Shown: positions 51,511 through 63,992 of the stretch, in pieces
Position numbering within the stretch: the first letter of the stretch is position 1
Layout: each line of letters begins with the position of its first letter
Origin: Tenacibaculum jejuense
GTDB lineage: Bacteria > Bacteroidota > Bacteroidia > Flavobacteriales > Flavobacteriaceae
Length of the DNA: 64,000 nt
Direction: 5' to 3'
Assembly (NCBI RefSeq): GCF_900198195.1
Contig: NZ_LT899436.1
Span: 682,001-746,000, forward strand
Notes under the pieces: generated by a model
What the model was told of the DNA's origin: nothing
What the model saw: the letters and a program-made list of their open reading frames with translations, nothing else
Databases searched by the model: none
Made by a program: the position numbers and the translations under genes

Positions 51511-53028
51511 ATGTTTGTAAATGAAGCTCCTCCTTTTAAAGAATTATCGTTAAATAATTATCTATTTAATGATGAATCTTTACAGTTATATGAAGATTAT
51601 GTTTCAAAGACTTTAGGATATATTCAGAAGTTTTTAGGAACGAGAAAATTCTACAAAGGAGACAACCTCGAAGAAATTCATGAGAATAAATTAAAAGCTC
51701 GATTAGTTGATGTTCATAGCTCAAAATCAATTGATAAAGCTTTACAGGAACTTAATGATTTATATATAAATCATGCAATACGTTTTCATAATCCAAATTA
51801 TGTAGCGCATTTAAATTGTCCAATAACATTACCGTCAATAATTGCAGAGCTTATAGCAACAACAGTAAATACAGCGGTAGAAACTTGGGATCAAAGTACT
51901 TCGGCAACGTTTATAGAGCAAGAAGTAATTCGTTGGATTTGTAATGAGTTCCGTTTCGATACAAACTCAGACGGAGTATTTACAAGTGGAGGAACACAAT
52001 CGAATTTTATGGCGCTGTTAATGGCAAGAGATCATTACGCTTTCGAGAATTATGGAATCAATATTAAGCAAAACGGATGGTCTGAAGAAGTAAATAAATT
52101 CAAGATTTTCTGTTCAGAGAAATCACATTTCAGTATTCAAAAAAATGCAGCTTTATTAGGTTTAGGTTACGATGCTGTAATTCCTGTTAAAGTAGATGAA
52201 AAAATGCGAATGGATACTGAAGCTTTATATGTAGCTATTGAGAAAACCAAGCAAGAAGGAAATATTCCTATTGCAGTTGTTGCTACATTAGGAACTACAG
52301 ATTACGGAAGTTTTGATCCATTACAAACTATAGGGAAAATTGCGAAAGAGCAAAACATGTGGTTACATGTAGACGGCGCTTATGGTGGATGTTACATTTT
52401 AACTGAAACACATGAACACCATTTTAAAGGAATGGAAATGGTAGATTCTGTAACTGTAGATTTTCACAAAACGTTATTCCAACCTGTAAGTTGTAGTGCT
52501 TTTTTAGTAAAGAATAAGCAGCATTTTCAATATGTGTCATATTACGCAGATTATTTAAATCCGCTAGAAAATAAAGACAAAGAGCGTCCGAATTTAATTG
52601 AAAAATCAATTCAAACAACTAGAAGATTCGATGCTTTAAAAGTATGGTTAACCTTAAAAACTTTAGGAACAAAAACTATTGCTTCATACTTAGAGGAAGT
52701 ACACCATTTAGCAAAACAAGTGTACACGAATTTAAAAGAGAATTCGAATTTTGAATTAGCCCATGTTCCAGAATTAAGTACTGTTGTTTTCCGTTATAAA
52801 AACTCTGAAGCAGCACACGAACCTACTCACGATGATGTGAATTTATACATTAAAAACAAATTATATACATCAGGAAAAGCTTCTGTAGCAAGTACAAAGT
52901 TAAACGGAAATATCTATTTGAAATTTACACTTCTGAATCCTAAAAACACAATAGAAAATCTACTAAATATTGTGAAAATGATTGAAGAAGCAGGAAAACA
53001 ATATCAACCCAAAACCGAATTATTATGA
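51511..53028 (+). CDS. PLP-dependent group II decarboxylase for the siderophore diamine
   Basis: 505 aa, full length. PLP-binding lysine Lys320 in TVDFHKTLFQP. HVDGAYGGCYIL carries the Asp/Ala pair that contacts the cofactor, and SGGTQSNFMALLMARDHYA is the phosphate-binding loop. Family: group II decarboxylases, as in DesA/BibA, which turn lysine into cadaverine for desferrioxamine or bisucaberin; ornithine or diaminobutyrate are alternatives. It overlaps the hydroxylase gene by 4 nt. It is the first gene of the operon. Confidence 0.9.
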   Translation: MFVNEAPPFKELSLNNYLFNDESLQLYEDYVSKTLGYIQKFLGTRKFYKGDNLEEIHENKLKARLVDVHSSKSIDKALQELNDLYINHAIRFHNPNYVAHLNCPITLPSIIAELIATTVNTAVETWDQSTSATFIEQEVIRWICNEFRFDTNSDGVFTSGGTQSNFMALLMARDHYAFENYGINIKQNGWSEEVNKFKIFCSEKSHFSIQKNAALLGLGYDAVIPVKVDEKMRMDTEALYVAIEKTKQEGNIPIAVVATLGTTDYGSFDPLQTIGKIAKEQNMWLHVDGAYGGCYILTETHEHHFKGMEMVDSVTVDFHKTLFQPVSCSAFLVKNKQHFQYVSYYADYLNPLENKDKERPNLIEKSIQTTRRFDALKVWLTLKTLGTKTIASYLEEVHHLAKQVYTNLKENSNFELAHVPELSTVVFRYKNSEAAHEPTHDDVNLYIKNKLYTSGKASVASTKLNGNIYLKFTLLNPKNTIENLLNIVKMIEEAGKQYQPKTELL

Positions 53029-54350
53029 GTAAGCATGTAGCAGATTTTATAGCCGTTGGAGTAGGACCTTTTAATTTAGGTTTGGCTTGTTTAACTGAGC
53101 CAATAGAAAATTTAAATGGTGTTTTTTTAGATAGAAAAGAAAAGTTCGATTGGCATCCAGGAATGTTGTTAGAAGATACCACATTACAAATTCCTTTTAT
53201 GGCAGATTTGGTAACGTTAGCAGATCCTACAAATGAATTTAGTTTTTTAAATTATATCAAACAGAAAGGAAGAATGTATTCTTTTTACATTCGAGAAAAC
53301 TTTTTATTATTAAGAAATGAATACAATCAGTATTGTCAGTGGGCTATTAGTAAACTAAATAATATTCATTTTAATACAGATGTAACTCATATTGATTATG
53401 ATGAGAAAGAGAAAGTTTATATAGCTACAGCTAGATGTACAAAAACAAAAGAAATAAAAATTTATAAAGCTAAAAAGTTAGTTTTAGGAACAGGAACTCC
53501 ACCTTACATTCCAGAATGTTGTAAAAAACTAAGAGGAAAAGCTGTTCATTCTTCAGCATATTTAGATCATAAAGAAAGTTTACAAAAGCAGAAAAAAATT
53601 ACTGTTTTAGGAAGTGGGCAAAGTGCTGCTGAAATTTTTTACGATCTATTATTAGAAGCAGATACAATTGGTTATGAATTAAATTGGATTACACGATCTC
53701 CAAGATTCTTTCCTTTAGAATATTCTAAGTTGACATTAGAAATGACATCTCCAGAATATGTAGATTATTTTTATGATTTACCTAGTGAAAAAAGAGACGA
53801 TTTAATTAAAAATCAGAAACATTTATACAAAGGAATAAACAGTGATTTAATCGCTGCAATTCACGATACTTTATATACGAAACGAGTAGTTGCAGAAGAT
53901 AAGTTGAAAGTTTCTTTAAGGACAAACACTGAACTTATTGAAACTAAATTACAAGACAATACAGTTCAATTAGAATTACATCAAGTTGAGCAGAATAAAT
54001 ACTTCCAACACGAAACTGAAGGGTTGGTTTTAGCAACAGGATATTCGTACCAATTACCAGAATTTGTAAATGGAATTTCAGATCGAATTCAATGGGATGA
54101 AAAAGAGCGTTTTGATGTAGCACGTAATTATAGTGTAGATAAAAATGGTAACGAAGTTTTTGTGCAAAATGCAGAATTGCATACTCATGGTTTTGTAACT
54201 CCAGATTTAGGAATGGCAGCTTATAGAAACTCATACATCATTAAAGAAATGACAGGAGTAGAACATTATTCTGTAGAAAGTAAAATTGCTTTTCAACAGT
54301 TTGGTGTAAGTCAAGAAGAAGAAATTATGAAGAGCATAATGAGTCACTAA
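53025..54350 (+). CDS. Diamine/lysine N-hydroxylase (flavin monooxygenase)
   Basis: 441 aa. FAD motif GVGPFNLGLA (residues 8-17), substrate-region WHPGMLLEDTTLQIPFMADL, NADPH motif GSGQSAAE near 197 and C-terminal ATGYSYQLPEF. This is the IucD/PvdA/DesB family, which makes the hydroxylamine later acylated to a hydroxamate. With the adjacent decarboxylase the likely substrate is cadaverine or putrescine (inferred). ATGA overlap with the previous gene. Confidence 0.93.
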   Translation: MSKHVADFIAVGVGPFNLGLACLTEPIENLNGVFLDRKEKFDWHPGMLLEDTTLQIPFMADLVTLADPTNEFSFLNYIKQKGRMYSFYIRENFLLLRNEYNQYCQWAISKLNNIHFNTDVTHIDYDEKEKVYIATARCTKTKEIKIYKAKKLVLGTGTPPYIPECCKKLRGKAVHSSAYLDHKESLQKQKKITVLGSGQSAAEIFYDLLLEADTIGYELNWITRSPRFFPLEYSKLTLEMTSPEYVDYFYDLPSEKRDDLIKNQKHLYKGINSDLIAAIHDTLYTKRVVAEDKLKVSLRTNTELIETKLQDNTVQLELHQVEQNKYFQHETEGLVLATGYSYQLPEFVNGISDRIQWDEKERFDVARNYSVDKNGNEVFVQNAELHTHGFVTPDLGMAAYRNSYIIKEMTGVEHYSVESKIAFQQFGVSQEEEIMKSIMSH

Positions 54351-54498: not shown

Positions 54499-54514
54499 GT
54501 AAAGTTTGAAACAA

Positions 54515-55690
54515 ATGAAATTAAAAAACTTTTTGATTTTAATGACTTTTGTTGCTGTTGTTAGCGACTATTTATTACATCCTTTTTATCCACAATTTTT
54601 TGAGTTACGATTTGGTGTTAAAAACCCAGAATTGGTTGGTTATTACTTTGCTGCGATTTGTTTTATGGTAATGATTGCTTTTCCTTTTTGGGCTTATATA
54701 TCTAAGAAAGTTTCAGAGTTAAATATATTGGTTTACACTCAGTTTGTAGCTGGTATTTTAGCCTTGTATTGCTTTTATACCAGTTCTTATCTTCTATTTT
54801 GGATTGTCTCATTAATTATGATTTTATTCAAAGGAAGTTACCTTTTAGTGTATCCTTATATTTTAAAAATAATTACAAAAGAAGAGCATCCTAAAGTCAT
54901 TGGTTTATTATCAGTTGTTGTTCATTTAGGTGGAATTTTAGGCGCAGTAATTGGAGGGTTAACAGTAGATTTAATTGATCCTAGAAATATCTTTTTAATC
55001 ATGGCAGCTGGTGATTTTGTTCAAATGGGAATGAGCGGATATTTATTGAAGAGTGATAAATACGCAACGGGATTAATTGTTTCAGAAGAAGTAAAGACGG
55101 AAAAGAAATTAATTCCTAAAGGTTTCATTTTGAAATTGGGTTTAATAACACTGATTTTATATTTCAGTGATTTCTTAATCAGACCGTTTTTCTCATTGTA
55201 TTGGGAGAGTTTTTCAGCATATAAAACCAAGTTTATATCAGGAACAGTATACGCAATTCCTGGCTTTGTTGCTTTAATCACACTTTGGATTAACAACAAA
55301 AGAAAAACTCAAAATGGTTATAAAGGAATTGTAAATGCATTAGTTATCGCTTTAATCGGACTTTTTCTTCAGGGAATTCCTTCTGATGCTTTTGTAGTTG
55401 TTGGAAGAATAATTTACGGATGGGCAATTTTCCAAGGCGTTGTAAAATTTGATATTCTTTTATTCGAATTGAGTACGCCAGATTCTTATGCATTAGATTA
55501 TAGTAAAATTCATTTTTTCCAAAATTTAGGAGTACTAATTGCTTCACTAAGTGTAGGTGTTGTTGTAGATAAATTTAGTTTACAAATTCCGTTCACCATT
55601 GCTTTAGTTGGATTTGTGATTACACTGGTTTTATACTTCTTCGTATTTAAATCTGTGAGAGTAACTCATAAAGAACTCGCTAAAACTTAA
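54515..55690 (+). CDS. MFS transporter, probable siderophore exporter
   Basis: 391 aa from ATG 54515; a TTG at 54506 would add three residues. About 11-12 membrane segments. The family loop between TM2 and TM3 is visible (WAYISKKVSELNILVYTQF), and TM5 shows GGILGAVIGGLTVDLIDPRN. MFS exporters of this kind (EntS-like) commonly accompany NIS siderophore genes. It sits between hydroxylase and synthetase genes, so export of the product is the natural assignment. Import remains possible. Confidence 0.85.
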   Translation: MKLKNFLILMTFVAVVSDYLLHPFYPQFFELRFGVKNPELVGYYFAAICFMVMIAFPFWAYISKKVSELNILVYTQFVAGILALYCFYTSSYLLFWIVSLIMILFKGSYLLVYPYILKIITKEEHPKVIGLLSVVVHLGGILGAVIGGLTVDLIDPRNIFLIMAAGDFVQMGMSGYLLKSDKYATGLIVSEEVKTEKKLIPKGFILKLGLITLILYFSDFLIRPFFSLYWESFSAYKTKFISGTVYAIPGFVALITLWINNKRKTQNGYKGIVNALVIALIGLFLQGIPSDAFVVVGRIIYGWAIFQGVVKFDILLFELSTPDSYALDYSKIHFFQNLGVLIASLSVGVVVDKFSLQIPFTIALVGFVITLVLYFFVFKSVRVTHKELAKT

Positions 55691-55693
55691 GTT

Positions 55694-58108
55694 ATGAGTA
55701 AGCAAAAAATAATTTTTGAAAAGAAGTATGATTCAATAGGTCAGATTAGTATACGATCTTTTGATGTGAAAAATGACAGTGAGTTTTTACATTCTTGGGT
55801 AACAAAAGAGTATGCTTTTTTTTGGGGAATGCAAGATGCTACTTTAAAAGATGTAAAAAGAGAATATAAAAAATTGACAAAACCAGAACATTATGATGTT
55901 TTTGTTGGAGAATATAATAACGAACCTGCTTTTGTACTAGAACGTTACGATCCTAAACAAGATATTGTGGGAGAGTTTTATAACGCTAAGCATAATGATT
56001 GTGGAATACATATTATCGTAGCTCCACCAACTGAAACTAAAATTCCAAATTTTACTTGGTTTATGTTTAGAGCCATCATGGATTTTATCTTTTCTAATAG
56101 CTCTATATATCGAATACTAGTTGAACCAGATATTCGAAATAAAAAAATGTTTGCGCTCTGTGAACGTATTGGTTTCCAACTTGGAGATATTATTGAGTTA
56201 CCATATAAAACAGCCCAATTAGCATTTTTAACAAAGCAAAATTATCAGCAAAAAATAAAAACACTTTTACCTTCAAAAAGAAGTAGTATGAATACTATAG
56301 ATAATGTGGTTTCTCCACAACAATCAACACAACATATACAACCAAAAGTTTGGCAACAAGCCAATCGATTATTAATAAAAAAAGCCTTATGTGAGTTTTC
56401 ACACGAGTTACTAATAAAGCCAGAAATCATTTCTAATTTAGAAAAAGGATTTCATCATTATAAAGTTTACAGCGATCAGAAAGAAATTCGATATGAATTC
56501 TATGGAAAACCTATGGCTATGAATCATTTTTTAATTGATGAGTTTTCAATTAAAAAGTTCGAAAATGATAAAGAAGTAGCTTTAGATGCTATATTTTTCA
56601 TTAAAGAATTCAGAAAAGCTTTAGGTATTGCAGATGAAAAAATGCCTGTATATCTAGAGGAAATTATTAGTACTTTATACGGAAGTACTTATAAAATCAC
56701 AAAAGGAAATCCTACTGCTAAAGAATTGGCAACAGCAGATTTTCAAACTATAGAGCAGTCTATGACCGAAGGTCATCCTGGTTTCGTTGCTAACAATGGA
56801 AGAATAGGTTTCGATAGTACAGATTATCGTTCGTACGCGCCAGAAGCAGGAAACTCTTTTTCATTATTATGGTTAGCTGGTCATAAAAGTAAAGCCGTTT
56901 ATTCTGCGTTAGAAAGTTTGCCTTACGAAAAGTTAATTCAACAAGAATTAGATCCATCAACAATAGTTCGATTTAATAATACAATTTTAGAAAAAGGATA
57001 CCGACCAGAAGATTATCTATTCATTCCGATTCATCCATGGCAATGGTTTAACAAGCTCGCAAATATTTTTGCTCCAGAAGTAGCTAAAGGAGATTTAATT
57101 TGTTTAGGATATGGTCCAGATCAATATTTAGCACAACAATCAATTCGTACATTATTTAATACAACTAATCCCCAAAAATTCTATACCAAATCTGCCCTGT
57201 CAATCTTAAACATGGGCTTTATGAGAGGTTTGCCATTATATTACCTAGGAACAGCTCCTAAGATGGCAGTTTGGTTAGAAAATTTACTATATAACGATAC
57301 TTATATAAAACAAAACGGATTCAGAATGTTAAGTGAGATAGGATCCGTAAGTTATGTAAATCCTTATTTTGAAGAGTTTGGACCACATAACGATTATAAC
57401 AAAATGTTAGCATCATTGTGGAGAGAAAGCCCGTACTCAGTTGTAACAAAAAATCAAAAGCCAATAACTATGGCGGCTTTACTCCACATTGATCATCATG
57501 GGAATGCTTTATTACCAGAAATTATAAAAGATTCTGGAATTTCAATCGACGATTGGATTAGAAAATATTTAAAAGCTTACTTGAGTCCAATGTTGCATTG
57601 TTTCTACTATTATGATTTAGTATTTATGCCTCATGGAGAAAATATCATTTTAGTTTTAGAGCATAATATTCCAGTGTATGCTTTACTAAAAGACATCACA
57701 GAAGAGGCTTGTATTTTAAGTGAAGAGGTAGAATTACCAGAGCACTTAAAACGTATGTATGCTCCTGTACCAGAAGATGTAAAATTACTTTCAATCTTCA
57801 CAGATATGTTTGACGGGTTCTTTAGATTCTTAGCACCGATTTTATTTGAACATGCACACTATTCAGAAGAACGTTTCTGGGAGTTAGTTGCAGAAAATGT
57901 AACAGAATATCAAGCACATTTTCCAGAATTAGAAGAGAAGTTTAAAAAGTACGATATGTTTGCCGATGATTTTAAATTATCATGCTTAAACAGATTACAA
58001 TTAAATAATCATAAACAAATGATCGATTTAGATGATCCTGTAGCGTTACTTCAGTTTGCTGGGAAATTAGAAAACCCAATAGCACAATTTAAAACTCAAA
58101 CTGTATAG
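55694..58108 (+). CDS. Fused GNAT acyltransferase - NIS siderophore synthetase (BibC-like)
   Basis: 804 aa. Residues 1-190 are a GNAT domain of the IucB/AlcB type (FLHSWVTKEYAFFWGMQDAT, DCGIHIIVAPPTET, WFMFRAIMDFIFSN), which acylates the hydroxylamine. Residues about 215-800 are an IucA/IucC synthetase with a FhuF-like C-terminus: TEGHPGFVANNGRIGFDSTD, PIHPWQWFNKL, SIRTLFNTTNPQKFYTKSAL, and FMPHGENIILVLEH. The same fusion is described for BibC of bisucaberin synthesis. It activates carboxylates with ATP and condenses hydroxamate units. Its C-terminal half is a paralogue of the 605-aa gene. Confidence 0.93.
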   Translation: MSKQKIIFEKKYDSIGQISIRSFDVKNDSEFLHSWVTKEYAFFWGMQDATLKDVKREYKKLTKPEHYDVFVGEYNNEPAFVLERYDPKQDIVGEFYNAKHNDCGIHIIVAPPTETKIPNFTWFMFRAIMDFIFSNSSIYRILVEPDIRNKKMFALCERIGFQLGDIIELPYKTAQLAFLTKQNYQQKIKTLLPSKRSSMNTIDNVVSPQQSTQHIQPKVWQQANRLLIKKALCEFSHELLIKPEIISNLEKGFHHYKVYSDQKEIRYEFYGKPMAMNHFLIDEFSIKKFENDKEVALDAIFFIKEFRKALGIADEKMPVYLEEIISTLYGSTYKITKGNPTAKELATADFQTIEQSMTEGHPGFVANNGRIGFDSTDYRSYAPEAGNSFSLLWLAGHKSKAVYSALESLPYEKLIQQELDPSTIVRFNNTILEKGYRPEDYLFIPIHPWQWFNKLANIFAPEVAKGDLICLGYGPDQYLAQQSIRTLFNTTNPQKFYTKSALSILNMGFMRGLPLYYLGTAPKMAVWLENLLYNDTYIKQNGFRMLSEIGSVSYVNPYFEEFGPHNDYNKMLASLWRESPYSVVTKNQKPITMAALLHIDHHGNALLPEIIKDSGISIDDWIRKYLKAYLSPMLHCFYYYDLVFMPHGENIILVLEHNIPVYALLKDITEEACILSEEVELPEHLKRMYAPVPEDVKLLSIFTDMFDGFFRFLAPILFEHAHYSEERFWELVAENVTEYQAHFPELEEKFKKYDMFADDFKLSCLNRLQLNNHKQMIDLDDPVALLQFAGKLENPIAQFKTQTV

Positions 58109-58110
58109 AA

Positions 58111-58686
58111 ATGATTTCAACAAATACAGTAATTTTTTCAAAAGATATTCCTAACGTAGGAAAAATAAGTATTCGTCCGATTCATTTAGATGAGGACATA
58201 AACTTTCTTCATGAATGGCTTACCATGCCATATGCAAAATATTGGGGAATGTTAGAGTATACGTTAGATCAAGTAAAACAATCGTATCTAGAGATAGAAG
58301 ATAACGAAAATCATCATGCTTTTATAGGTTTACTAAATGATGTTCCTGTGTTTCTTATCGAACGTTATAAAGCTTCAGAAGATGTTATAGCAGCACATTA
58401 CGATGCTTTATTAGGTGATTACGGAATGCACATTTTGGTAGCTCCAGCAGAAAAAAGAATTCCTCAATTTACTTGGTATGTATTCTCTACAGTTATGGAA
58501 TATTTTTTCAGTTTGTCTTTTGTAGAAAGAGTAGTAGTAGAACCAGATAAAAACAATGAAAAAATTCATGTATTAAATAAAAAAGCGGGCTTTGTTTATG
58601 ATAAAGATATTCAGTTATCAGATAAGATAGCTTCATTGGCTTTTTGTACAAGAGAATCATTTCAAGAAGCCATAAATAAGATATAA
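58111..58686 (+). CDS. Stand-alone GNAT acyltransferase of the second synthetase module
   Basis: 191 aa; paralogous to the N-terminal domain of the 804-aa protein. Shared patterns: FLHEWLTMPYAKYWGMLEYT, ERYKASEDVIAAHYDALLGD, YGMHILVAPAEKRIPQFTWY, and FSLSFVERVVVEPDKNNEKI. It starts 2 nt after the fusion gene and ends 1 nt before the second synthetase. It may use a different acyl donor (acetyl, succinyl or longer acyl-CoA). No residue visible here decides which. Confidence 0.9.
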   Translation: MISTNTVIFSKDIPNVGKISIRPIHLDEDINFLHEWLTMPYAKYWGMLEYTLDQVKQSYLEIEDNENHHAFIGLLNDVPVFLIERYKASEDVIAAHYDALLGDYGMHILVAPAEKRIPQFTWYVFSTVMEYFFSLSFVERVVVEPDKNNEKIHVLNKKAGFVYDKDIQLSDKIASLAFCTRESFQEAINKI

Positions 58687-58687
58687 A

Positions 58688-60505
58688 ATGTCACAAAATA
58701 TAGCACATTTACAGCCTCATATTTGGAAGATTGTAAATCGTAACTTAATAAAAAAAGCAATTAGTGAATTTGCTCATGAGCTTATTATAAAACCAAGTTT
58801 TGTAAAAGAAAAAGGTGAGTATTTAGTTTATGAAATTAAAACTGATTGCGAGAGATTCAAGTATCAATTTGAAGCTAAAAAGAACTTTTTAGATCATTGG
58901 AGTATTTATAAAAATAGTATCATAAAAAATGATGTAAAAGGAAATAATTTAGATTTAGATGCAATTCATTTTATCACAGAATTTAAATCTACTTTAGGAA
59001 TTCCAGATAAGTTTTTAGCCACCTATTTAGAAGAAATTACAAGTACACTTTTTGGTGCAGCCTACAAACTATCAAACGAGAAATATTCAGCTACAGAACT
59101 TGCAACTCAGAGTTTTCAAGAAATAGAACATGCAATGACTGAAGGTCATCCTTGTTTTGTCGCAAATAACGGAAGGATAGGTTTTAATACTAACGATTAT
59201 CATTTGTATGCTCCGGAAGCAAATACACCATTTAAAATTTTATGGTTAGCTGTTCATAAAAACTATGCAACTTACGCTGCTGTAAAAGGTTTTGAATATG
59301 AAAGTTTATTAAATAATGAACTTGGAAAGGAAAAAGTATACGAGTTCAACCAAATATTAAAAGAGTCAAATGTAAATACTGAAGACTATCTTTTAATGCC
59401 TGTTCATCCTTGGCAGTGGACGAATAAAATCACCCATGTTTTTGCCGCAGATATCGCCAAGAAAAACATTGTCTTAGTTGGTGAAAGTGATGATTTTTAT
59501 TCAGCACAGCAATCCATCAGAACATTATTTAATAGAACTAATCCAGAAAAGTTGTATACCAAAGGAGCTTTGTCGATTTTAAATATGGGCTTTATGCGTG
59601 GTTTATCGCCTTATTATATGCAAAGTACGCCACCAATCACAACTTGGATAACTGATTTACTTGCTGAAGATGAATATTTAACTGACAATGGATTTACAAT
59701 GCTTGGTGAAGTAGCTACTATTGGTTATCAGAATCATTATTACGAAATTTTAGGAAAAACAAATCCGCATAATAAAATGCTATCTGCATTGTGGAGAGAA
59801 AGTCCGTTTACCAAAATTAGTTCCAATCAAAGAGTATTAACAATGGCTGCGCTATTACACATAGATACTCAAGAAAATTCTCTTTTAGCAGGATTAATTG
59901 ATAAATCTCCGTACGTAACTACAACTTGGATTCAGCGTTATTTAAAAGCATATTTAGCTCCATTATTACATTGTTTTTATAAATATGAATTTGTTTTTAT
60001 GCCTCATGGAGAAAACTTAATATTAGTTTTAGAAGAAGATACTCCAGTTTATGTTTTGATGAAAGACATCACAGAAGAGGTGATTGTTTTCAATAAAGAA
60101 ATGAATTTACCAGAGCATGTTGATAGATTGTACACAGAGACTTCAGATAAAATGAAAGTACTATCAATTTTTACTGATGTTTTCGATTGTTTTTTCAGAT
60201 TCTTAGGAGCACAGTTAGAACTTCATGTGAACTTTTCTGAGTACAACTTCTGGCAATTGGTAGCAGATTGTATTTATGAATATCAAGAACAACATCCAGA
60301 GTTTATGGATAAATATGACCGTTACGATTTATTTGTTGATGAATTCGATCGTTGTTGTTTAAATAGACTCCAATTAGGAAATACAAAACAGATGTTGAAT
60401 TTAGCTGATCCTATCGAAAGTTTAAAATTAGTAGGAACTCTTGAAAATCCATTAGCAAAATTCAGAAAAGAAACGAAATCAAAACCATCTTTAGAAACGA
60501 TATAG
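58688..60505 (+). CDS. Second NIS siderophore synthetase (IucA/IucC family)
   Basis: 605 aa, unfused. Motifs parallel the first copy: TEGHPCFVANNGRIGFNTND, PVHPWQWTNKI, SIRTLFNRTNPEKLYTKGAL, and FVFMPHGENLILVLEEDTPV, with a C-terminal FhuF-like part. The two synthetases differ throughout, so the duplication is not recent. Two synthetases suggest two distinct condensation steps or two products, as in aerobactin assembly (IucA and IucC), rather than the single-synthetase dimerization of bisucaberin. Confidence 0.93.
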   Translation: MSQNIAHLQPHIWKIVNRNLIKKAISEFAHELIIKPSFVKEKGEYLVYEIKTDCERFKYQFEAKKNFLDHWSIYKNSIIKNDVKGNNLDLDAIHFITEFKSTLGIPDKFLATYLEEITSTLFGAAYKLSNEKYSATELATQSFQEIEHAMTEGHPCFVANNGRIGFNTNDYHLYAPEANTPFKILWLAVHKNYATYAAVKGFEYESLLNNELGKEKVYEFNQILKESNVNTEDYLLMPVHPWQWTNKITHVFAADIAKKNIVLVGESDDFYSAQQSIRTLFNRTNPEKLYTKGALSILNMGFMRGLSPYYMQSTPPITTWITDLLAEDEYLTDNGFTMLGEVATIGYQNHYYEILGKTNPHNKMLSALWRESPFTKISSNQRVLTMAALLHIDTQENSLLAGLIDKSPYVTTTWIQRYLKAYLAPLLHCFYKYEFVFMPHGENLILVLEEDTPVYVLMKDITEEVIVFNKEMNLPEHVDRLYTETSDKMKVLSIFTDVFDCFFRFLGAQLELHVNFSEYNFWQLVADCIYEYQEQHPEFMDKYDRYDLFVDEFDRCCLNRLQLGNTKQMLNLADPIESLKLVGTLENPLAKFRKETKSKPSLETI

Positions 60506-60506
60506 T

Positions 60507-61085
60507 ATGACTTTTGAAGCAATTACTAAGTTGATTAAAGATAGAAGATCAACATATGCATACGATTTTTCTGAAGAACAATTATCTAAAGAAACTATTG
60601 AGAATATTGTGTCAAATGGATTATGGGCACCAACTCATAAACTAACGCAACCATGGAGATTTGTGGTTTTAGAAGGAAAACACAAATTAGCATTAGGTGA
60701 GTTTATGGCAAAATATTACCGAGAATTATATACTGAAGAAGAATTTTCTACAGAACGATTTGAATCCACAAAGCAATATGCGAAAAATGCCACACTATTA
60801 GGTGTAATTTTTCAGCCTAGCAAAAGAGCACAACTTCCAGAATGGGAAGAAATTGCTGCAATTTCCTGTGCTATTCAAAATATGTGGTTAAGCTGTACTG
60901 CTGCAAATATTGGTTGTTATTGGGATACAGCTTCAGCAACTATGGAATACGGAAAAAGAATTCCTTTAGAAGAAGGGGAACAGTTTTTAGGAATCTTATT
61001 CATGGGGAAATTGAAAGAGAATATTGCATTGAGCAATAGAAGAAGAAAACCATTGTCTAAAAAATTGACTTGGCTAAACAACTAA
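60507..61085 (+). CDS. Nitroreductase-family oxidoreductase
   Basis: 192 aa. The FMN-binding N-terminal motif is IKDRRSTYAYDFSEEQL, followed by SNGLWAPTHKLTQPWRFVVL; a conserved later part reads EIAAISCAIQNMWLSCTAAN. It starts 1 nt after the second synthetase gene. In a siderophore operon it could reduce iron(III) for release, or act on a nitroso, hydroxylamine or enoyl group of the product. The sequence does not discriminate. Confidence 0.85.
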   Translation: MTFEAITKLIKDRRSTYAYDFSEEQLSKETIENIVSNGLWAPTHKLTQPWRFVVLEGKHKLALGEFMAKYYRELYTEEEFSTERFESTKQYAKNATLLGVIFQPSKRAQLPEWEEIAAISCAIQNMWLSCTAANIGCYWDTASATMEYGKRIPLEEGEQFLGILFMGKLKENIALSNRRRKPLSKKLTWLNN

Positions 61086-61089
61086 AATT

Positions 61090-62187
61090 ATGAAACAAAC
61101 TACTAAAAGAATATTAGAATTAGATTTAACAAAAGGGATAGGAGTTTTTTTTATTCCTATGGCGCATACATTATTAATTTATGGAACTACCGAAACTCAA
61201 GAGAATAATTGGTTAGGGTTAGTAGTTCATTTCTTCGGAAAATGGGCAGGGATTTTTATTATAGCCATGGGATTTTCTTATGCACTATCAAAAAAGAATA
61301 CAGTTAAAAGTTCAATTAAGCGAGGTTTATTGTTACTTGGAGCAGGTTATTTTATGAATTTCTTAAAATTTATTGTTCCGCTATTTTTAGGTTTAATTCC
61401 AGATAGTTTTATCGAAGCTTATGGATGGACACCACCACCAACTTTTGATAACATGGTATATATGGTATTAACTGGTGATATTTTACAATTCGCAGGTATG
61501 TGTTTATTATTCATGGGAATAATTCATAAACTTGTTGAGAAATTTTCAAAATGGGTGACAATTGTCGCAACATTATTAATTTTAGTTTCATTAGAATTTA
61601 TAAGAGGTTTTAGGTTAGGTATACCTGGAGTAGATTATATTTTCGATTTACTTTGGGGCGATCAATGGAATGTATATTTCCCAGTTTTTCCTTGGTTTGG
61701 ATTTACTCTAGTTGGAATGTTCTTCGGATATTGGTATAAAGAAGCCGATAAAAATAGATCCTTTATTTTCAAAAAAATGTTAATTGCAGGAATTCCAGCA
61801 GTTATTACAGGTGGTATACTTTGTTATTTGAATTATGATTTTCATATGAGAGATTACTTTCATTTAGGAATTGGCGGATACATCTATTTAATAGGTTTTA
61901 ACTTAATGTCTTTTTCTTTAGCGTATTTCTTAGTAAAACAATTTAATGGAAGCAAAGTGTTAGACTTCTTTTATTACTGTAGTAAAAAAATCACATCGAT
62001 ATATATAATTCAATGGGTTGTAATTTGCTGGGGAATGGGATTTTTTGGTTATCATAACCAAAAAAATAGCACGGTAATTCCTTTAATGATTTTATTCACT
62101 GTACTTACACTTTTTATTCAAGTTATAGTTGATAAACTTTTAGCTAAAAGGAAAAGTAAGAATGTTTTAGCAGTATCTAAATCTTAA
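61090..62187 (+). CDS. Polytopic membrane acyltransferase-like protein (DUF1624/HGSNAT or acyltransferase-3 type)
   Basis: 365 aa with about ten membrane segments. The N-terminal LELDLTKGIGVFFIPMAHTL has the R/D...H arrangement of membrane acyltransferases. A C-terminal segment KKITSIYIIQWVVICWGMGF matches the last conserved helix (SIYIIHW-like) of the superfamily. It starts 4 nt after the nitroreductase gene. Together with the crotonase-like next gene, it suggests that an acyl chain is transferred to a small molecule at the membrane. The subfamily is uncertain. Confidence 0.75.
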   Translation: MKQTTKRILELDLTKGIGVFFIPMAHTLLIYGTTETQENNWLGLVVHFFGKWAGIFIIAMGFSYALSKKNTVKSSIKRGLLLLGAGYFMNFLKFIVPLFLGLIPDSFIEAYGWTPPPTFDNMVYMVLTGDILQFAGMCLLFMGIIHKLVEKFSKWVTIVATLLILVSLEFIRGFRLGIPGVDYIFDLLWGDQWNVYFPVFPWFGFTLVGMFFGYWYKEADKNRSFIFKKMLIAGIPAVITGGILCYLNYDFHMRDYFHLGIGGYIYLIGFNLMSFSLAYFLVKQFNGSKVLDFFYYCSKKITSIYIIQWVVICWGMGFFGYHNQKNSTVIPLMILFTVLTLFIQVIVDKLLAKRKSKNVLAVSKS

Positions 62188-62198
62188 ATTTTAAAGGA

Positions 62199-63026
62199 AT
62201 GACTGCTAACTATAAACATTTTAAAGTCGATTATTATCCTGAACATGAATTGTTAATTTGGAAAATTAATAGCAAAGGAATTCCTAATTTTTCTCTAGAA
62301 GGATTAAAAGAGTTTGAAACTTTTGCAGATGATTTACAAATGGTTTTTGCAGATAAATCATATCCCTTAAAGTATATAGCTTCGGCATCTTTACATGATG
62401 AAGTTTATAATATGGGAGGAGATTTACCTTTTTTCTTTGAGCATATTATTTCAAAAAATAGAGCTGTACTTACAGAATACGCGCATTCGTGTGTTACAGC
62501 TATCTATAATATTTATAACAGTTTTAATTTGCCGGCAATAAGTGTAGCTTTAGTAGAAGGAAATGCTTACGGAGGCGGTTTTGAATGTGCTGCCGCACAT
62601 GATGTGATTATTGCAAATAAAAAAGCCAAGTTCTGTTTACCAGAAAAGAAATTTAATCTATTTCCAGGAATGGGAGCGTATAGTTTTTTATTTAGAAAGT
62701 TAAATTTTAATATAGCATCAAAAGTATTATACGAAGGTAAAACTCATAATGCCTCTGAGATGAATGAGTTCGGTTTAGTGAACGAAGTATTTGATGAAAA
62801 TATTGGCACTTCCAGACTTATCGCATACACAAAATCAATCAGCTATAATTTTATTTACAATCACTTTAAATGTATTAAGAGAGTCTTTCCCATACAAAAA
62901 GAAGAATTGTTAGATATCACTAATACTTGGGTAGATGCATGTTTAAATTTAGATAAAGCTAGCTTAAGACGCATGGAATTAATTATAAAAGCGCAGCATA
63001 GAAAACTTAAACACAAGGTATCTTAA
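62199..63026 (+). CDS. RpfF-like crotonase (DSF synthase homologue)
   Basis: 275 aa. It has motifs of RpfF, the DSF synthase, rather than of ordinary enoyl-CoA hydratases: VYNMGGDLPFFFEHI, ALVEGNAYGGGFECAAAHD and FCLPEKKFNLFPGMGAYSFL, ending with WVDACLNLDKASLRRME. Catalytic Glu129 (GGGFE) and Glu149 (LPE) are 20 residues apart, as are Glu141 and Glu161 of RpfF. Known: RpfF dehydrates 3-hydroxyacyl-ACP and releases a cis-2-unsaturated fatty acid. An AAAGGA box precedes ATG 62199. It is the last gene of the siderophore operon. It could make a signal or an acyl building block (inference). Confidence 0.9.
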   Translation: MTANYKHFKVDYYPEHELLIWKINSKGIPNFSLEGLKEFETFADDLQMVFADKSYPLKYIASASLHDEVYNMGGDLPFFFEHIISKNRAVLTEYAHSCVTAIYNIYNSFNLPAISVALVEGNAYGGGFECAAAHDVIIANKKAKFCLPEKKFNLFPGMGAYSFLFRKLNFNIASKVLYEGKTHNASEMNEFGLVNEVFDENIGTSRLIAYTKSISYNFIYNHFKCIKRVFPIQKEELLDITNTWVDACLNLDKASLRRMELIIKAQHRKLKHKVS

Positions 63027-63992
63027 TTAAAATTTTTTATTTCGATATGACTTAGGAGTTATCGATAGCATTTTTTTAAATGCTGCAGAGAAATGGGTAG
63101 GATTTTTATATCCTACCAACTCTGCTATTTCGTATATGGGTTTTGTTGTGTTAGAAAGTAATTTTCTAGCTTCATTCATTCGCTGTTGAAGTGAAAATTC
63201 AAATATGGTAACACCGAAATTTTTCTTGAATTCTTTTTTTAATAAAAATTCATTCAAATAAATCTTTTTAGAGAGTTCGTGAACAGAAAATTGTGTATCT
63301 AAATTATTTATAATTAAATCTTTTGCAAGATGTATCTTTTTCAGAGTAGTAGAAGTATGTATGCCCTTCTTTTTATTTTCAAACTGAAGTAATATTAATT
63401 CTAAAACTTTAGCTTCTAAGAAAAGACGTTTTAATAATCCTGTTTTTTCATCCGAAAGAATTTCACTAATTATATTTTGAGTTTTATAGTCTAATTGATT
63501 TGAAAAATTTTCTTTGATATGTTCGATGGAGAAATTTTTGTAAATAGGAAAGGAAGCAGCTAATTGATGTTTTTTAATAAACTCATCAGACATTTTAATA
63601 ATAATTTCACTAATCACTTTTTCTTTAGGGTAAGAAATATAACCATCTGATTTGTTGATAAAGGAAATACAGCTTTCCATCTCTTCTTGAATTAATTCAA
63701 TTTCAGGTTTGGGAACGTAAATTTTCTTTTCTCCTTTTATGAGTAAAGAAAGCAAAAGAGAATCTCTTTCATAAAAGCCAGTAATTTTAGTTTCATGATT
63801 AAATTTTATTTCTCTTTTCCTAACCATCAAACCATCAAAACTCCAACAAATGACTTCACCAGAGCCAAAATTTTCCTTAACCCGAAAAAACTTTGTAGTT
63901 AAGCCACAGTGAATGTTGCTGTTAGTTAATTGTAGGATTTCATCTAAAACATGTTCGTTGCTACTATCAACTTCTATGTTTATGGTTTCCAT
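63027..63992 (-). CDS. AraC/PchR-like regulator of the siderophore locus
   Basis: 321 aa. The N-terminal domain (residues 1-200) is of the PchR-like type without recognisable sugar-binding residues. The C-terminal double HTH is KIHLAKDLIINNLDTQFSVH, LSKKIYLNEFLLKKEFKKNF and YEIAELVGYKNPTHFSAAFK, ending SITPKSYRNKKF. Known: PchR-type AraC proteins sense ferric siderophore and activate its genes. It is convergent with the operon, its stop being adjacent to that of the crotonase gene, and its start is 8 nt from the right edge. Confidence 0.88.
   Translation of the reverse strand: METINIEVDSSNEHVLDEILQLTNSNIHCGLTTKFFRVKENFGSGEVICWSFDGLMVRKREIKFNHETKITGFYERDSLLLSLLIKGEKKIYVPKPEIELIQEEMESCISFINKSDGYISYPKEKVISEIIIKMSDEFIKKHQLAASFPIYKNFSIEHIKENFSNQLDYKTQNIISEILSDEKTGLLKRLFLEAKVLELILLQFENKKKGIHTSTTLKKIHLAKDLIINNLDTQFSVHELSKKIYLNEFLLKKEFKKNFGVTIFEFSLQQRMNEARKLLSNTTKPIYEIAELVGYKNPTHFSAAFKKMLSITPKSYRNKKF

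Follow-up and report, generated by a model that had tools for sequence, protein, structure and literature searches.

The last gene of a hydroxamate siderophore operon in Tenacibaculum jejuense encodes an enzyme of the RpfF (DSF-synthase) family, which has probably been recruited to supply the cis-2-enoyl tail of an amphiphilic desferrioxamine-type siderophore. The gene lies on the + strand at 62199..63026 of the window, the 64,000-nucleotide stretch of DNA that was analysed (contig NZ_LT899436.1, positions 682,001 to 746,000). The proposal draws on the sequence family of the enzyme, its catalytic residues, the repeated linkage of its gene to bsb genes, the exchange of the gene within a cassette and the absence of GGDEF and HD-GYP proteins from the genome.

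The open reading frame begins with ATG and encodes 275 amino acids. Homology to RpfF over the active-site region, as claimed in the initial annotation, was borne out by comparison with solved structures. The best matching chains were 5fus from Burkholderia cenocepacia (E 1.4e-47) and 6dgn, which is titled RpfF (1.8e-47), followed by 3m6m, the RpfF of Xanthomonas (6.3e-37), and its close relative 7zq7 (1.8e-37); the first other crotonase, 3lke, reached merely 2e-13. E-values of 1e-47 to a solved RpfF rule out a chance similarity. Identity was 84/224 positions (37.5%) with the 5fus piece and 71/204 (34.8%) with the 3m6m piece. The catalytic residues Glu129 (in GGGFE) and Glu149 (in LPEKK) are 20 residues apart, the motif LFPGMGAYSF is also present, and both glutamates recur in the 5fus and 3m6m pieces. 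Further, both glutamates, the GGG motif and Trp244 are conserved in all 83 best-ranked database matches (P0001-P0083), and both glutamates and the tryptophan, which the Burkholderia enzyme shares, in 70 of 70 further family members. The latter comprise 34 loci and 36 lower-ranked matches (P0085-P0120, one of them a short protein from Flavivirga and a member of the clade described below); these residue counts leave aside the short P0084 and the divergent protein of genome G857. At the level of sequence, the predicted product of 62199-63026 is thus confirmed as a DSF-synthase-family crotonase that retains both catalytic glutamates.

Profile searches gave a similar picture. The protein passed the NCBIfam model NF006452 with 267 bits against a cut-off of 177, as did Burkholderia RpfF, and did not reach the RpfF equivalog NF053515 (164 bits against a cut-off of 550). 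Since the Burkholderia 5fus piece likewise fails NF053515 (175 bits), with the Xanthomonas 3m6m piece at 451, this model fits RpfF of the Xanthomonas type, and the missed cut-off does not disqualify the protein as a DSF synthase. An enzyme that hydrates CoA esters, for example in recycling or degrading acyl chains, with the double bond of the siderophore set by other means, would have the same crotonase fold, and many relatives are indeed annotated as crotonase or enoyl-CoA hydratase. However, none of the listed hydratase models scored above 73 bits, against 267 on NF006452, and in the tree described below the enzyme groups with RpfF proteins and not with the other four crotonases encoded in its genome, so that a role as a CoA-ester hydratase is highly improbable.

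The initial annotation had looked to phylogeny among RpfF proteins and crotonases to separate the two families, and a grouping with CoA hydratases was not seen. In a tree of 62 rows, the siderophore-linked RpfF-like proteins form a single clade (support 99/99) that is sister to Burkholderia 5fus (98/96), itself a long branch, and the four other crotonases of the window genome fall outside (99/98). The enzyme is thus placed with proven DSF synthases, a position that argues against an ordinary enoyl-CoA hydratase. The siderophore clade consists of 19 rows, namely 16 of the 19 Bacteroidota loci, the window protein and the proteins of G857 and G861; the tree took 34 of the 61 non-Bacteroidota loci, omitted L074, L085 and L123, and represented the PDB entries by pieces. 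Pairwise dN/dS of the RpfF-like genes ranged from 0.03 to 0.23 over seven pairs, with dS near or above 1 in two of them.

The gene is the ninth and last of a nine-gene block on the + strand, which agrees with the earlier claim that it terminates a hydroxamate siderophore operon; ORFs and Pfam matches identify the block as a bsb-type (bisucaberin B/tenacibactin) operon. It starts with a bsbA-like PLP decarboxylase (51511..53028; PF00282, 2.4e-71), which occupies the position of BsbA in T. mesophilum and by analogy to BsbA would form cadaverine, and continues with a bsbB-like N-hydroxylase (53025..54350; PF13434, 2.6e-126) and a bsbE-like MFS exporter (54506..55690; PF07690, 2.8e-22, with the start taken as 54512 for the Pfam scan and for the gaps given below). 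A bsbCD1-like gene (55694..58108; PF13523, PF04183 and PF06276) encodes a fusion of a GNAT acyltransferase (C1) with an NIS synthetase (D1), and is followed by a bsbC2-like GNAT acyltransferase (58111..58686; PF13523, 5.6e-44) and a bsbD2-like NIS synthetase (58688..60505; PF04183, 4e-79). A nitroreductase-family protein (60507..61085; PF00881, 3.6e-22) and HGSa, an HGSNAT-like membrane acyltransferase-like protein (61090..62187; PF07786, 1.6e-21), precede the RpfF-like gene. The intergenic gaps are -4, 161, 3, 2, 1, 1, 4 and 11 bp, and from this spacing the nine genes are probably co-transcribed; a promoter scan returned 40 sites against 68 expected by chance.

The bisucaberin B cluster of T. 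mesophilum contains the same six kinds of gene (A, B, E, CD1, C2 and D2) with the same GNAT-synthetase fusion (PMC6164419). As presented in the consulted part of that report, however, the cluster consists of six ORFs, none of which corresponds to the nitroreductase, HGS or RpfF gene, and neither a hydratase nor a nitroreductase is mentioned (PMC6164419). A nitroreductase-like gene was found in 26 of 30 Tenacibaculum operons and at few Aquimarina loci; as a matter of speculation, it might be linked to the terminal hydroxamic acid of the tenacibactins. Convergent to the RpfF-like gene lies a gene for an AraC-family regulator (63027..63992, - strand; PF12833, 5.8e-20). A regulator of this family was present in 30/30 Tenacibaculum operons compared, and because it is found both with and without RpfF, it goes with the operon. 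Beyond it, just outside the window (L149, 14169-19337), are genes for a TonB-dependent receptor and a PepSY_TM protein.

The initial annotation had suggested a survey of genomes for RpfF beside siderophore synthetases, and this linkage was found in all 16 Tenacibaculum genomes that carry the gene, in 33 of 34 from the Aquimarina genus and at all 19 Bacteroidota loci of a named collection. In Tenacibaculum (166 genomes), a D2 homologue (E 1e-60 or better) was present in 31 genomes and an RpfF-like gene (E 1e-30 or better) in 16, all of them within the 31. The RpfF-like gene stood in the 3' section of the operon in every case (15 fetched regions and that of the window), as the last gene in 11 and as the last but one, with a desaturase-like gene after it, in five. 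Similarly, among 66 genomes of the Aquimarina genus (that of Aquimarina megaterium), the synthetase was found in 45 and RpfF (E 1e-20 or better) in 34, again all within the 45. The two genes were 1.14-4.02 kb apart in 33 of these, the exception being G861 at 889 kb; in one of the 34, G879, a stop lies inside the matched stretch. Thus, in both genera, no surveyed genome has an RpfF-like gene without a siderophore synthetase (16/16 and 34/34). Hypergeometric probabilities for the overlap, uncorrected for kinship, were 4e-14 in Tenacibaculum and 1.4e-9 in the Aquimarina genus.

In wider samples the gene is rare. A survey of the bacterial family gave matches in four of 299 genomes, namely the window genome, Kordia, Flavivirga and G051, of which Kordia and Flavivirga carry the operon, and a sample across the phylum (395 genomes; E 1e-25 or better) returned the window genome itself only. 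In the named collection, among the best 80 loci, all 19 from Bacteroidota adjoin bsb genes, and 0/61 of the others do so by tblastn and profiles of the synthetase, monooxygenase, GNAT and decarboxylase, several of these loci having short flanks. The sole tblastn match there was AraC-like (L141). The association with NIS genes is thus not a habit of the whole RpfF family. At the end of the bsb operon in Flavivirga aquatica (L123, 10001 onward), the RpfF reading frame is split in two.

Strains swap RpfF in and out of otherwise near-identical operons. In the 30 Tenacibaculum operons compared, those with RpfF end in HGSa-RpfF (4), HGSb-hydrolase-desaturase-like-RpfF (7) or HGSb-hydrolase-RpfF-desaturase-like (5), and those without it in HGSb-hydrolase-desaturase-like (12) or HGSa alone (2); the 31st operon, that of G428, is fragmentary and was set aside; what is left of it ends in HGS-AraC and lacks RpfF. 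The additional operon genes of T. aiptasiae code for an Abhydrolase_3 protein and a membrane protein of the FA_hydroxylase family. The exchange is sharply bounded in the window genome, where the cassette begins with HGSa and ends with the RpfF-like gene. Compared with G449, the DNA is 96% and 93% identical up to window position 61073, at the end of the nitroreductase gene, and identity resumes at 90% from position 63025, inside the stop codon of the RpfF-like gene. Between these points HGSa-RpfF stands opposite HGSb-hydrolase-desaturase-like of G449, and a single match of 74 bp was found within HGSa-RpfF. Similarly, G363 and G341 share 86-88% identical DNA and differ at this place by RpfF, which in G363 separates the hydrolase gene from the desaturase-like one; G341 has about 70 bp in its stead. 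Such near-identical operons with and without RpfF are natural comparisons. On the backbone tree, RpfF was gained or lost at least five times, and three gene orders occur among its 16 carriers. Because the gene comes and goes and changes its order, yet stays with the operon, a role in the product of the operon is the best explanation. In the exceptional Aquimarina-genus genome G861, RpfF is part of an island with a C1-type GNAT, a desaturase-like gene, HGS and a hydrolase, distant from the synthetases.

The initial annotation had left two readings, an iron-triggered DSF signal and the supply of a cis-2-enoyl chain to the siderophore. The latter gained support from the linkage to the operon and from the chain of tenacibactin K discussed below; the former did not. 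In the signalling reading, a free DSF-type fatty acid would act as a quorum or interspecies signal of iron starvation, and the gene would merely be co-regulated with the siderophore. The nearest characterized relative in the tree is Burkholderia RpfF, the BDSF synthase (5fus/6dgn), and RpfF enzymes also hydrolyse the thioester to release the free acid (PMC6361424). In Pseudomonas aeruginosa, moreover, less pyoverdine is made when dspI, the gene of a crotonase linked to cis-2-decenoic acid, is deleted (PMC5834635), so signals of this type can affect iron uptake in other bacteria. However, Burkholderia RpfF partners a receptor, RpfR (PMC6361424), whereas the window genome has no GGDEF protein and its gene sits in a siderophore operon. 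In this complete genome (one contig, 4.61 Mb), neither GGDEF (PF00990) nor HD-GYP (PF13487) domains were detected by searches that were positive in 8 and 4 of 14 control genomes, respectively. There is thus no output of the RpfR or RpfG type (GGDEF-EAL or HD-GYP), as is usual for DSF quorum sensing. Together with the constant company of siderophore synthetase genes in two genera, this makes signalling unlikely as the main role, and a free signal that is merely co-regulated with the siderophore would be quite a surprising answer.

The supply of a tail is consistent with the chemistry of known products of the genus. Tenacibactins K-M are cadaverine-succinate hydroxamates with an iso-C15 tail; in tenacibactin K, NMR places a cis double bond between C2 and C3 (3J 11.4 Hz) of the chain that acylates the hydroxamate nitrogen, the tail of tenacibactin L has its cis bond at position 4, and that of M is saturated (PMC8767563). 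RpfF dehydrates a 3-hydroxyacyl-ACP to form a cis-2 bond and then hydrolyses the thioester (PMC6361424). Given this chemistry, the chain of tenacibactin K is therefore of the DSF type. It is two carbons longer than DSF, and the tails of tenacibactins L and M could draw on ordinary iso-C15 fatty acids. The tenacibactin producer, strain C16-1, has a 16S sequence 99.4% like that of T. aiptasiae (PMC8767563), and in T. aiptasiae a4 (L071) RpfF stands at the end of the bsb operon. In the consulted part of the report, the tenacibactins are structures to which no genes are assigned (PMC8767563); the RpfF-like gene is a candidate for the unexplained cis-2 feature of tenacibactin K.

In the proposed pathway, the RpfF-like enzyme would remove water from the thioester of an iso-branched 3-hydroxyacyl chain and so create the cis-2-enoyl group; its substrate is probably 3-hydroxy-iso-C15-ACP drawn from fatty acid synthesis. 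One of the GNAT enzymes of the operon (C1 or C2) would then transfer the enoyl chain to the hydroxylated nitrogen of N-hydroxycadaverine, and the NIS synthetases D1 and D2 would link the acylated N-hydroxycadaverine to N-hydroxy-N-succinylcadaverine units. This would yield a siderophore resembling tenacibactin K, whose hydroxamate carries a cis-2-enoyl tail. We infer the enzyme's part in forming the tenacibactin K double bond, its substrate and the GNAT used; the structure of tenacibactin K and the chemistry of RpfF come from the literature. The C1 GNAT was considered as the fixed tail transferase; the island of G861 favours this assignment, and three loci of the Aquimarina group (L077, L086 and L201), where RpfF occurs with the C2/D2 pair only, contradict it.

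RpfF is known to act as a thioesterase as well, and the pathway presumes that the chain either escapes hydrolysis or is re-activated afterwards. No ACP or acyl ligase was found by Pfam among the nine operon genes, and an RpfF-like enzyme that hydrolyses its product would thus free an acid in need of re-activation. In a divergent NIS operon of G857 (L200, 7164-11901), the RpfF relative comes after genes for a MATE transporter and an AMP-binding acyl ligase. Among the operons seen, no other has an acyl ligase gene ahead of RpfF; here it is the next gene upstream, at a distance of 0.8 kb, and the interval on the coding strand holds no small ACP-like ORF of at least 40 aa. The G857 protein has also lost the GGD motif and one G of GGG. 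Because it departs at conserved residues and the ligase is 0.8 kb away, this operon lends weak support and is not a clean case of RpfF with an acyl ligase; the protein may have a different job.

Products of other Tenacibaculum strains set limits to the proposal. The acyl-desferrioxamines of T. maritimum have unsaturated tails in which the position of the bond is unassigned (PMC12224167), and G333, taken as T. maritimum, has a bsb operon without RpfF; RpfF is thus not behind all unsaturated tails. T. mesophilum is reported to produce bisucaberin B, which has no acyl tail (PMC6164419). A protein of this species (P0008) is nevertheless 99.3% identical to the enzyme of L055, an operon that ends in RpfF. 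Acylated forms may have been missed in T. mesophilum, or the tail pathway may have been off under those conditions. Further, 167 clusters similar to that of bisucaberin B have been described in Flavobacteriaceae data (PMC10734526). Some of these may yield acylated products in which the double bond depends on an RpfF-like gene, and the type of tail would then be predictable from sequence by the presence of RpfF.

A comparable tail is known from mycobactin, a hydroxamate siderophore with a cis C2-C3 acyl chain that is placed by the transferase MbtK (PMC4376628). The bond of mycobactin is set by the dehydrogenase MbtN (PMC4376628), whereas in the window this task would fall to an RpfF-family dehydratase. 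If the proposal is correct, this would be a second, unrelated route to a cis-2 hydroxamate tail. MbtK and the GNAT enzymes of the operon presumably belong to one Pfam family. DSF synthases are known as makers of signals, and a branch that builds siderophores would unite quorum-signal and tailoring enzymes in one family. Among the matches listed from open-licence literature, as judged from titles and the beginnings of abstracts, none joined RpfF or DSF synthesis to siderophore tails.

The two functions may also be combined, in that the enzyme makes the tail and the chain, or the acid released from it, doubles as a DSF-like cue for neighbours. Hydrolysis would release a cis-2 iso-branched acid of DSF shape, and an esterase-like gene is present in 24 of 30 Tenacibaculum operons. 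However, the cassette of the window has no such gene, and a double use of this kind seems improbable here. A wider and rather doubtful conjecture is that in marine Flavobacteriaceae a clade of DSF synthases left signalling and now makes hydroxamate tails in a swappable cassette, with the siderophore backbone kept, and that, since the tail has the shape of DSF, neighbouring bacteria that sense DSF could also read or jam the siderophore or what hydrolysis frees from it.

RpfF-like genes also occur in other settings. Crotonase genes of this kind are found on an Escherichia coli plasmid (NZ_CP060058.1, 22334-23071) and on several Methylobacterium plasmids, with 30-36% identity to the window protein. 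Within the same bacterial family as the window genome, locus L068 (G051:C119, 1343-3060) carries a tandem pair of RpfF-like genes in an unrelated cluster, a point against the tail proposal. No siderophore genes were found on its 13.6-kb contig, and the neighbouring genes, as judged from their reading frames, encode a large fatty-acid/polyketide synthase-like protein, a P450-like protein and a PPTase-like protein.
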